Part shown: one piece after another, positions 5,497 through 10,829 of the stretch | How positions within the stretch are numbered: position 1 is the first letter of the stretch | How the letters are laid out: each line of letters opens with the position of its first letter | NCBI RefSeq assembly: GCF_001485575.1 | Contig: NZ_BCNB01000002.1 | Span: 186,001 to 250,000 of the forward strand | From: Haloarcula sp. CBA1127 | Lineage (GTDB): Archaea > Halobacteriota > Halobacteria > Halobacteriales > Haloarculaceae | Length of the DNA stretch: 64,000 bases | Direction: 5' to 3' | Position numbers and translations under genes: made by a program | Notes under the pieces: model-generated | The model's input: the letters and a program-made list of their open reading frames with translations, nothing else | Told to the model about the DNA's origin: nothing | Database searches by the model: none

Positions 5497-6197
5497 TTAG
5501 CACTCTTCGCAACTGCAGTAGCGCTCGCAGACGGGGTTAGCGCAGTCGGGACTGCGCGCTGAGCAGAACTCCCGGCCGTGGGTAATAAGCAGAACGTGCA
5601 GCGGGTAGGTCAGTTCGTCGGGAATGATTGCGTCTAGCTCGTCGTGGGCGCGCTTGTTCGTTGCTGATTCGGTTACCAGCCCGAACCGCTTGGAGACCCG
5701 CTCGACGTGGGTGTCGACAGCCATTGTCGGCTTCCCGAAGTGGAAGTTCAGGACGACGCTGGCGGTCTTTGGGCCGACGCCCTTGATATCGGTGAGCCAG
5801 CCTTTCGCCTCGTCGGTTGGCATGGCGTCAAGGAAGGCAAGAGAATAGGCCCCACCGGTTTCCTCGCGGATGGCCGCAAGCGCCCGCTGAATGCGGGCGG
5901 CTTCTGGTCGGGGAGCCCTGCGACGCGGATGGTGTCGGCCAGTTCGTCGTGGTCTGCCGCTTCAATAGCTTCGAAGTCGCTGTATGCGGTGAACAGCGCC
6001 TCAGAGGCTCGGCGTGTATTCTCGTCGGCTACGTTTTGTGAGAGAATCGTCGTCACGAGCTGTCGAACTCCCTCGCCAGGGTCGGCGCTGGCGTCGGCGC
6101 CGTGGTCGCTTGTGCGTTCGACCGGGCCGTGCAGCGAGACGAGGTCGTCGTGGAGGTCACGAACACCGGCGGCGTCCCACTCTTCAGTCGTCGACAT
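5497..6197 (-). pseudogene. nth: Endonuclease III, interrupted by a one-base frameshift
   Basis: The enzyme removes oxidised pyrimidines from DNA and nicks the abasic site. The first part (start ATG at 6197, MSTTEEWDAAG) carries LVTTILSQNVADENT and runs to DQK near 5903. The second part resumes one base out of register and reads IKGVGPKTASVVLNFHFGK, then VDTHVERVSKRFGL with the catalytic aspartate, then a cysteine cluster near the C-terminus (first spacing C-x6-C). Adding a single base at about 5900-5901 (minus-strand AAG CCG to AAG GCC GCC) joins both parts into a 233-residue protein of normal length. All motifs are otherwise intact. Either the mutation is recent or the base is a sequencing error. 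Confidence 0.85.
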
Positions 6198-6507
6198 ATT
6201 CCCTGCCAAGGCCCAGACCGACTTCAAGACACCGTCCTCGTTCGGTTTCGACTTGCGCCGGTCCACGCTGACTCTATACCTTGCCAGAGACTCTTTTCGA
6301 CGGTGCTACACCACTCACCAGACTGTGAGTAGGGAACAGCAAGATCGGTATCGGGGCTATCTACCCGGGCAACCCCTCAGCCATTATCAGCAACTGCGCT
6401 TAGCGATGGGGCGAGGACAGTCATAGACGGCTTCGCCTGAGCCGACTGAGATATAGGTGTCATTGAGTGTGAATACCTTCTTACCCACACGAAGTGAATG
6501 GCCATGT

Positions 6508-7272
6508 ATGGGGATGCGCTGTGAACTCTTTGGACATGAATTTGGAGACTCAAAGATAGAGGAGTCGTACGATGAAGGCGAGCGCGGCACTGTTCTAACC
6601 GTTCGGGAATACAGGGCTTGCCAGCGATGTGGACATATCCACCATATCTCTGAGAATCGAGGCTTGATATCCACCATAGCAGAATCGAAAGCAAATGACG
6701 AGCGGTCGGACGATGCCGAATACACAGCCGAAACCGAGCGGCAAGTGGAACGGAGAGAGAATGCAGAGGACGAGACCGGGGCGACGGACACGGGTCAGCC
6801 GGCGGAAACGGAACCGACCGATGCTCCCGAATCGACAGCGAACGCGCCGGACACGGTCGCGGACCCACCCTCGGATACGGAAGTGAGTGAGGCATCCGCG
6901 GCGGTGACCGCATCGACACCACCGGAGCGGACTGACGATGCCGTAATACTGTCTGAATCAGCGACACAAGAGCCAGATGACGACGGCTCCACGCCGCCGA
7001 ATAGCGACGATGCAGTCATCATTGATGATGCTTCAGACACTGCGCACCCGTCGTCTGAAACTTTCGAAGAATCAGGTACTGAAAACGACCAAGACGAGAG
7101 TTTGCACACAGCGGACGACCTAGAGAGTACGACAACTGACTCGGATCCTACATATCGGTGCCCAAGATGTGAGTTCGAACTCCCAGTGAGTGAACCGTCA
7201 TTCTTTAGCGGTGATGTCTGTCCACAGTGTCGAGTCGGCTACCTCGAGGACACATCGGACAGCGAGTCGTAA
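6508..7272 (+). CDS. Haloarchaeal two-zinc-ribbon protein with long acidic linker
   Basis: The protein has about 254 residues in three parts. An N-terminal domain (MGMRCELFGHEFGD..., then YRACQRCGHIHHISENR) has a CxxC knuckle and a conserved haloarchaeal look. The middle, about 130 residues, is very rich in D, E, S and T and looks disordered. The C-terminal zinc ribbon reads CPRCEFELPV...CPQCRVGYL. An upstream in-frame ATG at 6457 would add a non-conserved stretch; the ATG at 6508 (or 6514) starts at the conserved domain. No enzymatic motif is visible. A role in nucleic-acid or protein binding is only a guess from the ribbons. It opens the salactin neighbourhood. Confidence 0.7.
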   Translation: MGMRCELFGHEFGDSKIEESYDEGERGTVLTVREYRACQRCGHIHHISENRGLISTIAESKANDERSDDAEYTAETERQVERRENAEDETGATDTGQPAETEPTDAPESTANAPDTVADPPSDTEVSEASAAVTASTPPERTDDAVILSESATQEPDDDGSTPPNSDDAVIIDDASDTAHPSSETFEESGTENDQDESLHTADDLESTTTDSDPTYRCPRCEFELPVSEPSFFSGDVCPQCRVGYLEDTSDSES

Positions 7273-7340
7273 GCCTTCGACGGGACGTGCCCCCCAGAGA
7301 GGTGGTCACCGTGGAATATGATCTTGCAGTGAGCGCCCGC

Positions 7341-8020
7341 TCAATAGTTCTGGAACAGCAGTTTTCGCACGTCATCTTTCGTCCGTGCGCTCACTGTTGA
7401 ACCGTCGGGGAGCGTGACTTCGTATGGTTCGTCGGTTTCATCTGACCGAGTCCACTTTTCGTCATGTTCAGTCAGCAAACGGTTAGCGACCGACAGGGTG
7501 TCTCCCGGGTGTTGTTGGGCTCGGCTGCGTCACCGGTTTCGACGGCATCGGGTGTTGGACCAGCCTGTGCCGACGTATCGCTTTGTGTGCTCTCGTGTCC
7601 GTCGCTTGGCGTATCCGCTGACTTCTTTTGACCAGTAGCGGCCCCTTCTCCATCACCTTCGTTCGCTCTCGTATCGGGGTCGATATCTGCAAGGCGAGTC
7701 GCGAGTTCACTCGTCCCAAGCGCCGAGAGCAGTTTCCCTCGCATCTCGTCGGCTTCAATACCGCTTCCGGGGACCTCCGGCACCTCGGACGCGATGTGTT
7801 GGAGTTCCGGATACTCAGCTGAGGCGATTCGCTCGTAGTCGGGACGGCTCAGGCCTTGCTCGCCTTCAAGCTGGTCCGGCGGTGTGTATGTATCGAGGAG
7901 GTAGTCCACGACATCTTGCGTACGAATATGACCGTACGTCTCGATGAACGCATCTTCAAGCTCCTCTTGAATTGCCGTTAAATCCGCCTGTTGTGTGTCC
8001 GTAATCTCGATCTCCGGCAT
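7341..8020 (-). pseudogene. Conserved haloarchaeal acidic protein, frameshifted near its C-terminus
   Basis: The start at 8020 (MPEIEITDTQQ) is fixed by a GGAGG ribosome site five bases upstream, in preference to the ATG at 8032. An N-terminal helical region (AIQEELEDAFIETYGH...VVDYLLDTYTPP) is followed by a disordered, S/T/D/E-rich linker. The frame then stops at 7472. One base out of register the sequence continues without a start codon as TLSVANRLLTEHDEKWTRSD, then YEVTLPDGSTV...TKDDVRKLLFQNY, ending TGA at 7341. Adding one G to the GGG run (plus strand CCC at 7504-7506) restores a 226-residue protein. Function is unknown. The N-terminus could be a small dimerisation or DNA-associated helical domain. 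Confidence 0.65.
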
Positions 8021-8113
8021 TGCCTCCAACATCGGTCGCCCAACTCATAACTCGTTCCCTAGAGGGGGAGAACTGACGGAACCATTGTATAGCAGAGACA
8101 CGCATACTCTGGT

Positions 8114-8587
8114 ATGCGGTGCCCCCGCTGCGATTCCGACCTCAGCACGTACACGCTTGCAACCGGCAACCAGACAGCGATCGTCTGTGAATCGTGCGGC
8201 TTCGCAGACCTCTCTACGTCCCATCACAACGAGGTATCTCCTCCAGAGTCCTGGGAATTCGCTTTTGCCCGGTTCAACCAGCATCCTGATTCTACCCCTG
8301 GGAAACCCGAGAATACTGGCCGGACACCCAGTGTCCCGATTCCAGAGAGTGACGAATCCACAGACCGACCAGAGTTCTCGCTTGAACAGGCTGGTGTTGC
8401 GGTCGGCATCTCTCTGGGGTCTGATACTAACACGTTCCGACAGGACGCTGCTGACGAGTTGAACCGCGTTATCGACGAGAGCGAAAGTGAATCAGGTGGA
8501 GACGGTACAGCCAACCTTGACGAGAACGATGTGGACAGTCAAAAGGCGGACACTGAAGCCGACGAAAACGGCGACGAAACTGAGTAA
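8114..8587 (+). CDS. Zinc-ribbon protein with acidic tail
   Basis: The protein has 157 residues. The N-terminus (MRCPRCDSDLSTYTL...IVCESCGFADL) is a compact CxxC...CxxC zinc ribbon. The middle (WEFAFARFNQ, then FSLEQAGVAVGISLGSDTNTF) is moderately conserved in appearance, and the last 40 residues are almost entirely D, E, S, N and G. No catalytic motif is present. It is divergent from the frameshifted gene at 7341-8020 and convergent with the actin-like gene, which ends 90 bases downstream. The ribbon is well supported; function is unassigned. Confidence 0.7.
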   Translation: MRCPRCDSDLSTYTLATGNQTAIVCESCGFADLSTSHHNEVSPPESWEFAFARFNQHPDSTPGKPENTGRTPSVPIPESDESTDRPEFSLEQAGVAVGISLGSDTNTFRQDAADELNRVIDESESESGGDGTANLDENDVDSQKADTEADENGDETE

Positions 8588-8677
8588 CGCCCACCGTCGG
8601 TTGTGTTATCTGGAACGAGGACCAAGCACAGATCTTGGCTGATGTCGGCGAGCAGCGCGTCGATGCGGGAGTAACCG

Positions 8678-9706
8678 TTACTCAGCGGAGGTGTCAGATT
8701 CTTCGGTCTGCTCGGTTTGCCCTTCGCGCTCTTCTTCCGACCGCGCTGCGACGAGTGCTCCCTGTGCAACGCTATACAGTGGATTCTCGGCCTGGCGGAC
8801 ATCGCTGATCGAGAATGGTATCTCGGAGTCATTGATCCGCTCGGCGAACAACTCTTCAAAGCCATCAGGACTCGATGTCCCACCAGTCACAACGACCGGG
8901 ACATCCAATCCTTCCTCGACATCTTCCTCATCAACTTCACTGATGATGTTTTCGATAACATAGTCGAGGAGATTGTCGTAATAGATGCTCAGCGCACCCT
9001 CAATACCACCGACATCCGTCTCAAAGTTGAGTGCGAAGTCTTCTTCCTTGACCGAGGTAACCTTATCTACGGGCGTGCCGGTCGCCTGTGCAGCTTGCTC
9101 GTCGATCCAGTCACCACCGCGTGCGATAGAGAACTTCATTACGGGGACTGCATAGTACGACAGACAAACGTTGGTCATCCCAGCGCCAAAGCTGATTCCG
9201 AGGCCAGTGAACTCACGATTTGCGAGCTCCGAGTAGATGACGGCCATCCCCTCATTGATCGGCTCTGGGCTGTATCCCATATCAGTAAGGAGTGACTCAA
9301 CCGTCTTTTGATGATACAGCGTCGACACATCGGCGTCGATGGGGTCTGCAGGAACCGAGAAAAACAGCCGCTCATTCGGGTACTCCGGTTGTCCAACCAC
9401 CTGTTCAGTGATGAGCTTAATCATCGGAATTGCTGATTGCTCGTCGCTTGAGAGAATCCCGGCCTGCATCGGTCGGCGCGTCTCCTCGCTGAAGATGTTC
9501 GCGAAATTCAGGGCGTCATCGCCAACAATATAGACCCGATCATCCTTGCGGATGTGGAGAACGTCACTTCTCGACAGCATTTGTTCGGCCATATCGCTGT
9601 AGTCAATTTCAACGAAGGAGTTCCGTTGCTGCACGAATACTGTTTCGTTACCATCTTGACGTGCAGACAGGAGGTTCATCGTACCGACATCGAGACCTTG
9701 AGGCAT
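8678..9706 (-). CDS. Actin/MreB-superfamily ATPase, salactin-like
   Basis: The protein has 342 residues. Visible actin-fold motifs are phosphate-1 GLDVGTMNL (residues 4-12), phosphate-2 [15 protein letters not shown] (near 166-180) and the adenosine loop [15 protein letters not shown] (near 274-288). The tail is acidic and E/T-rich. Halobacterium salactin, a dynamically unstable filament-forming actin homologue, is the closest described type I can place it with, from general pattern rather than alignment. A GGAGGA ribosome site lies about 11 bases before the ATG at 9706, with an AT-rich TATA-like stretch (TATATTATAG) further up. It should form cytoplasmic filaments and may act in shape, polarity or DNA positioning. 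The adjacent membrane-protein gene runs in the same direction. Confidence 0.78.
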
Positions 9707-9872
9707 ACAGTTGTATTCCTCCTACCAAGTTGAAAAAACTAGCCTATAATATAGAACAAATTACAACTTACGTACCAACTGTGGAGCGAAAGAAGTGTAA
9801 GGATATACTAACATGGTAAAACCAACCCAACAAAACCGCCACAGTAGACGGTATACGGACCAATCAGACTGT

Positions 9873-10829
9873 TTACTCGAAAAACAATGACCGAAGGCGG
9901 CTCATAAGACCCTTCTGCTCTTCGACACCAGTCTCTACATCATCGTCTTCGGCCTGCTCATTCCGGAACTCGGTAAGGGCGTTGACCTGCTCTTCGGTTC
10001 CAGTGCTTCGATCCGTCTTTGATTGGCCACCCTGCAACTGCCTGAGGCCATCTACTGCGTCGTCAACATCGTCGCTGTCGGCCCGTGTCGTGGTCGCCTC
10101 GGAATTCTCGATGGCCGTCTGGTCGAGGTCGGAGTCTGTGTCCGGCATATCCAGATTCAGCCGCTTGGTCTTTGGCTGTTGTTCGACGCCGCCCCAGGAT
10201 AGCTCCGCCCCTTCCATCGCTTGCTTTATGTCGCTGTCTACGTCTGCTTTGCTGACTGACTCTGACTCACTCTCGGCCGACTCAACCGGCTCGGCTGACT
10301 CAGCTGGCGTTGTCGCTCGCTCGAGGTAATGTGCGACCAGTGCCGCTCCTGTCGAAGCTACAAGTGTAACTAGGCCAGTAGCGTAGACGCTGATCGTCCA
10401 GACGCTCCCGTTGATTCCCTCACTGGTCGTCCACCCGTACGGAAAAACGTCAACCAGAATCACAGTTGCAGCAAGACAGAACACTGCGCCAGCGGCGCTG
10501 ATAACTCGGGTCTTCAAACCCACTGGGAGGAGCACGACGACGCTCAATAGCACGGAGGGCAGTCCAATGAACCCGACGACGAGTGCGACCTCTCGGATCT
10601 GCCAGTACAGCGTACTCCCGGATTCCAGAGCGTTACTGTACAAAAAGAGGCCGAATCCGACAACGGCCAGGGTGACTCCAGCGAAGAAGAGGCCAAATCC
10701 GACGTAGATGTCTCGCTCTTTAGCTGGCTCGCCGATATAGTCGTGATAAGCCGACCTGAGCCTGTCGCGATAGCCCGACACAGGATCGGCAGATTCGGGG
10801 GACCTGTTCGATGTAGATGCAGGGCTCAT
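9873..10829 (-). CDS. Haloarchaeal membrane protein with long acidic cytoplasmic tail
   Basis: The protein has 318 residues. A hydrophilic N-terminus ends in YRDRLRSAYHDYIGEPAKER. Four to five hydrophobic segments then span about residues 45-175, and a D/E/S/T-rich tail of about 140 residues follows, ending in GLMSRLRSLFFE, a short amphipathic basic patch. No transporter or enzyme motif is visible. It lies 166 bases upstream of the salactin-like gene on the same strand. A membrane platform with a flexible tail next to a filament gene suggests, but does not prove, a scaffold or anchor. The start at 10829 is preceded by an AT-rich stretch about 20-30 bases away. Confidence 0.65.
   Translation of the reverse strand: MSPASTSNRSPESADPVSGYRDRLRSAYHDYIGEPAKERDIYVGFGLFFAGVTLAVVGFGLFLYSNALESGSTLYWQIREVALVVGFIGLPSVLLSVVVLLPVGLKTRVISAAGAVFCLAATVILVDVFPYGWTTSEGINGSVWTISVYATGLVTLVASTGAALVAHYLERATTPAESAEPVESAESESESVSKADVDSDIKQAMEGAELSWGGVEQQPKTKRLNLDMPDTDSDLDQTAIENSEATTTRADSDDVDDAVDGLRQLQGGQSKTDRSTGTEEQVNALTEFRNEQAEDDDVETGVEEQKGLMSRLRSLFFE

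Follow-up and report, generated by a model that had tools for sequence, protein, structure and literature searches.

Volactin, the actin-fold protein encoded in this stretch of haloarchaeal DNA, is inherited together with a small set of partner proteins, one of which, a four-helix membrane protein with a motif-bearing tail, is a candidate for the factor that holds volactin filaments at the membrane. We refer to the partners as D (a DUF7139 membrane protein), Z (a small zinc-ribbon protein), A (an acidic protein) and E (a small protein found after A in a number of loci), and to the volactin gene as volA; the window is the whole 64,000-nucleotide stretch of Haloarcula sp. CBA1127 that was analyzed. 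We consider it highly probable that volactin works as a functional module together with D, Z and, in most cases, A, and we favor, at a probability of roughly 0.6, the fuller reading in which D would anchor the filament tips while Z, A and E would regulate the filament or link it to cargo. In Haloferax volcanii, volactin (VolA, HVO_2015) forms dynamic filaments that affect disk formation, are membrane-bound through their tips and bridge the cytoplasm; their binding factors are called unknown, and the hvo_2013 to hvo_2020 region has been flagged as shape-related (PMC10869688).

Table 1. Module genes, neighboring gene and features of D in the window
Feature	Position	Strand	Remarks
DUF7093 zinc-ribbon protein	6508-7272	+	PF23373, 84 bits; neighbor mainly in Haloarcula, judged outside the module
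A, acidic protein, frameshifted	7344-8020	-	Split into 7475-8020 (N-terminal part) and 7347-7496 (C-terminal part, another frame)
Z, small zinc-ribbon protein	8114-8587	+	Convergent with volA; conserved core 8114-8287
volA, volactin, actin-fold ATPase, 342 aa	8678-9706	-	Pfam PF25216
D, volactin-associated DUF7139 membrane protein	9873-10829	-	PF23600; upstream of volA, same strand
D, four transmembrane helices, residues 38-173	10311-10718	-	AlphaFold model, pLDDT about 72-97
D tail motif 1, DI..AM...ELSWGGVE, residues 200-216	10182-10232	-	
D tail motif 2, VD.qV.GLk.LkGG..KT, residues 255-272	10014-10067	-	
D tail motif 3, STVDDQTaaL.ELReqq, residues 277-292	9954-10001	-	
D C-terminal short helix, residues 305-318, usually basic	9876-9917	-	Helix in AlphaFold model

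The five genes that the original prediction placed at 6508-10829, two zinc-ribbon proteins among them, are all there, and its statement that the neighbors have no described function holds, none having been found for any of them in family profiles or literature. The same gene block lies on the 410-kb plasmid pNG700 of Haloarcula marismortui and the 388-kb plasmid pHsi388 of H. sinaiiensis, where the module genes are annotated as hypothetical proteins and where the public annotation of the H. marismortui D copy begins 16 codons later. Beside the block, an endonuclease III-like gene (HhH-GPD; window 5497-6266, minus strand) carries a 1-nt deletion in this genome; it is unbroken in pNG700 and pHsi388 and labeled “DNA lyase” in H. 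marismortui. One Haloarcula sebkhae genome holds the complete module twice, each copy on its own contig (L075, L077).

Judged by its sequence, the actin of this locus is volactin, a known and recently described actin family of haloarchaea. It matches the Pfam Volactin profile (PF25216) at 447 bits against a cut-off of 35, over profile positions 1-321 of 321, and is 74-98% identical to 110 volactins from across the class. The Pfam Salactin profile (PF25229) gives 17.5 bits, under its cut-off of 27.1, and the NCBIfam salactin model (NF053533) 25.5 bits against a cut-off of 400; the true salactin of this genome, at 619 bits, lies on another contig, and BLAST between the two proteins returns short local matches only (the best 26% over 58 residues). 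The sub-cut-off salactin scores, the volactin match and the separate salactin together rule out a salactin identity. The label “salactin-like” in the original prediction thus named the wrong branch, and membership in a different actin branch, which it had listed as evidence against itself, is what we find. All three nucleotide motifs that it reported are recognizable, as phosphate-1, phosphate-2 and adenosine motifs, with the qualification that the phosphate-2 region reads GISFGAGMT, with Ser at the position expected for Asp in 110/110 volactins. MreB and actin have Asp at this position, and the aligned salactin of this genome has Asn. No volactin relatives were found in viral contigs, and a sequence search of volactin against solved structures gave no significant match. 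In archaeon A07HR60 (L128) a second, partial volactin ORF of 189 aa lies +2.0 kb from volA, and a small ORF is repeated downstream of volA, suggesting tandem duplication or insertion.

To examine the gene neighborhood we scanned volactin loci from across the class with models of the neighbors, counting over 94 distinct loci with at least 4.5 kb on each side. De novo clustering of the neighbors used genes from a codon-based caller, as antisense ORFs swamped the clustering of raw ORFs. Near volA we find D in 78/94 loci, Z in 71/94, A in 22/94 and DUF7093 in 7/94; the loci that lack D are mostly from Halorubrum. Three layouts recur: D-volA, then Z (and A) in convergent orientation; Z-A-(E)-D-volA, with all genes on one strand; and (E)-A-Z in divergent orientation to D-volA. 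Gene order has been reshuffled, yet the neighbors remain together. Conservation around homologs of the filament gene, which had been put forward as the check on this gene set, is therefore found around volactin homologs for D, Z and A and is not found for the fourth neighbor, DUF7093. An apparent D-volA fusion in one locus (L109) is instead a frame read-through. In Natronococcus and relatives (L107, L115, L118, L119) there is no Z beside volA; in the two inspected, L107 and L119, the next gene encodes a member of a different family of small proteins (cluster 12), which occurs in ~19 loci, mostly just after volA.

Comparison with Haloferax connects the window to the experimentally studied volactin. 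H. volcanii volactin belongs to the same family (PF25216), and the window copy is about 80% identical to Haloferax copies. The Haloferax gene (L087) is flanked by D and Z as in the window, in the order D, volA, Z, CetZ; given this order and the literature assignment of HVO_2013 to CetZ5 and HVO_2015 to volactin, Z is probably HVO_2014 and D probably HVO_2016. The tubulin-like CetZ gene beyond Z (L087:10677-11879, plus strand) is most likely CetZ5 (HVO_2013), such that actin and tubulin homologs are near neighbors in this locus. The two genera differ in that A accompanies volA in the window and was not found in the volA genomes of the Haloferax genus (g34), and in that the Haloarcula block is plasmid-borne in H. 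marismortui and H. sinaiiensis.

Co-occurrence was assessed for volA, D, Z and A over the same 391 Halobacteria genomes. These genes are present in 233, 232, 226 and 201 genomes, respectively; volA co-occurs with D in 231 genomes, with Z in 225 and with A in 200, each partner occurring in a single genome without volA, and in all three comparisons 157 genomes have neither gene. Fisher p-values for such counts ignore shared ancestry, and agreement within genera is hence the safer evidence: in 13 genera of mixed volA content, D and Z track volA genome by genome in nearly all cases, and within Haloarcula all four genes are present in 16/16 volA genomes and in 0/8 others. The exceptions are G186 (D, Z and A present, volA absent; an assembly of ~180 contigs), G306 (volA present, D and Z absent; ~170 contigs), G060 (where volA matches weakly), G200 (Z absent) and five of the seven genomes of genus g62, which lack Z. 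A is missing from 33/233 volA genomes, including all nine volA-bearing genomes of g34, the group that includes Haloferax; with the Z gaps in g62, this means that neither Z nor A is essential to volactin everywhere. The DUF7093 family occurs in 37/37 genomes tested, volA-bearing or not, which, with its presence at only 7 of the 94 loci, led us to reject it as a module member; it serves as a negative control for co-inheritance. Gained and lost together with volA, D, Z and usually A are strong candidates for a membrane anchor and regulators, bearing in mind that co-inheritance indicates a shared role and not contact. The proposal that adaptor candidates lie beside the filament gene is to this extent supported for D, Z and A, with the actin renamed and DUF7093 dropped.

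D matches DUF7139 (PF23600) at 136 bits against a cut-off of 30, and is distinguished from the rest of that family by its tail. Generic DUF7139 proteins, found in 376/391 Halobacteria genomes, share the four-helix membrane domain with D and are without its WGGVE and LKGG/VDDQT motifs; most of the paralogs encoded away from volA end in the Cys-rich motif YCGNC..HF...C.H...D.ME.C (L153, L158-L177), and the tail of another paralog of the present genome (L156) ends in repeats instead. It thus seems that, within the family, a common membrane domain is combined with interchangeable cytosolic tails. We defined the D subfamily (A1) by the tail motifs WGGVE, LKGG and VDDQT plus the C-terminal helix; window D has all of these marks and scores 378 bits with the subfamily profile, against which paralogs reach only 54-100 bits.

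The earlier description of D as a multipass protein with a disordered acidic tail is accurate as to the four predicted transmembrane helices and the acidity (38 D/E vs 13 K/R over the final 145 residues, which end RLRSLFF), and needs revision in that the “disordered” tail holds conserved linear motifs. The AlphaFold model shows four long helices in the membrane and, at the motifs, short helices within a tail of mostly low confidence, and by the positive-inside rule both termini are probably cytosolic. Across 91 D sequences the tail motifs are approximately as conserved as the membrane domain: in motif 1, D200, G213 and G214 are invariant, with W212 at 99% and V215 at 97%, and in motif 3, L285 is invariant and Q281 97% conserved. 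WGGV occurs in 88/91 D sequences and 0/23 paralogs. The amphipathic basic patch ascribed to the tail end corresponds to a terminal helix of conserved position (R311 89% conserved) that is usually mildly basic, the last 15 residues having a mean net charge of about +1 (range -3 to +6), and whose amphipathicity only modestly exceeds that of shuffles (mean percentile 0.70). Compared with solved structures, D gave no fold match at E <= 0.001, and its sequence matched only short, weak and probably chance stretches of nucleoside permeases.

E, a protein of 69-116 residues that in some genera is encoded after A (in 14 of the examined loci), shares features with the D tail. Its N-terminal helix, M.LLDRLRSWLFG, resembles the D terminal helix, and its motif LDP..VTETR...V..L aligns to the motif 2 region of D in a profile comparison (hhalign; P = 1.7e-4, HH-suite probability 49%), the TR just ahead of motif 2 being part of what is common to both. 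The D tail of one Halorubrum has the sequence ATETRTTSGTVNDAVSELKGLQGG, similar to the ATETR...AVDALK of E. A regular expression for the shared motif matched 27/91 D tails (shuffles 1.7%), and as it was too strict on spacing, the profile comparison was preferred. Downstream of A in another locus (L189, 3451-4242, plus strand) lies a gene for a protein that combines an E-like beginning, MGLLDGVRRWW, with a four-Cys zinc ribbon, the motif TTR...V..L and a C-terminal stretch resembling that of A; it may be a natural fusion of module parts.

Z has residues C3, C6, C25, C28, W47 and R53, invariant in 50 sequences, and an ESW..A..RF stretch; against solved structures its sequence matched generic zinc ribbons and nothing more specific. 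A has a conserved, helical N-terminal part, in some genera a Rho_N-like segment, and a conserved C-terminal domain, and gave no significant match to solved structures by fold comparison or sequence search. That A is a conserved acidic protein broken by a frameshift was correctly foreseen: relative to four intact Haloarcula copies, it has a 13-nt deletion at 7509/7510. As this is the sole copy found in the genome, the strain may lack a working A, unless the deletion is an assembly error.

Of the proteins found here to track volactin, only D is a membrane protein, and it has conserved motifs on its probable cytosolic side; this makes it the best candidate for a tip anchor or nucleator. That it holds the tips of volactin filaments to the membrane is, on balance, the reading we lean toward. 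The D tail motifs would bind volactin, or cap or nucleate filament ends, and D would thereby tie the tips of a cytoplasm-spanning filament to the membrane, while its C-terminal helix would rest against the membrane and keep the tail near it. Z and A would be accessory regulators or cargo adaptors, and E, where present, could be a soluble counterpart of the D tail that associates with the membrane; these roles in regulating or loading the filament are proposed less firmly than that of D. A more specific scheme, in which D and E, as an integral and a peripheral membrane protein, would present the same volactin-binding motif beside a membrane-binding helix and jointly recruit filament ends while Z and A link the other end to nucleic acid, is a long shot, although if true the D/E/Z/A set would be a dedicated membrane-to-nucleoid actin tether unlike bacterial or crenarchaeal sets.

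Among the alternatives, the most serious is that D acts upstream in the rod-disk program, as a sensor or regulator that shares a pathway with volactin and does not contact the filament, with Z and A as transcription factors that control the module. This would suit the weak profile matches of Z to zinc ribbons of the transcription-protein kind, the Rho_N-like segment of A that exceeds the Pfam cut-off in some genera, and the place of volactin and its region in a shape program (PMC10869688). We nevertheless think it unlikely, since generic D paralogs differ from D precisely in the cytosolic tail, the recurrence of the D tail motif in E looks like a shared binding partner and not a sensor, and D has no recognizable DNA-binding domain. 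Very unlikely, and largely refuted, is a passenger block spread on megaplasmids, in which linkage would explain the co-occurrence. The block is indeed found on plasmids, including a 987-kb plasmid of Natrinema thermotolerans besides pNG700 and pHsi388, and its presence is patchy inside genera. However, the genes stay together in inheritance when they are unlinked: in Halorubrum, D, Z, A and E are clustered away from volA (in G006, for example, as one cluster) and Z and A of G153 share a contig with volA at a distance of 1.18 Mb, while in Natrialbaceae such as G192 and G181, A is tens of kb from volA. As co-inheritance persists in the unlinked Halorubrum genes, linkage is not its cause, and the adjacent DUF7093 family does not follow volA. 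A salactin identity for the actin, with its neighbors as a DNA-segregation apparatus, is scarcely credible: both are actin-fold filament proteins and salactin profiles match weakly (17.5-25.5 bits), but the volactin score and the distinct salactin of the same genome contradict it, and volactin works in disk formation whereas salactin of Halobacterium salinarum has a role in DNA partitioning (PMC10869688, PMC10746226).

Overall, the genome comparison puts forward D and Z as candidates, with motif-level predictions, in a genetically tractable archaeon. Volactin has been linked to the change from rods to disks and to the multicellular tissue that compression induces in haloarchaea (PMC10869688, PMC7617734), and an anchor for it would hence matter for the evolution of the actin cytoskeleton. 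We found no description of the co-inherited partner set or of the motif-bearing D tail in the literature searched, which took in few subscription papers. H. salinarum salactin shares with volactin a haloarchaeal origin, an actin fold and filaments that show dynamic instability (PMC10746226); unlike volactin, it belongs to a different family, is pole-anchored and is tied to DNA partitioning, and its gene neighborhood is reported to be poorly conserved whereas that of volactin is conserved. Actins encoded with dedicated adaptors or regulators are familiar from crenactin-arcadin clusters, MreB-MreCD/RodZ and ParM-ParR. The volactin module differs from these sets in that D and A have no significant structure match and Z matches only generic zinc ribbons, and resembles them in its general plan of an actin with dedicated partners.
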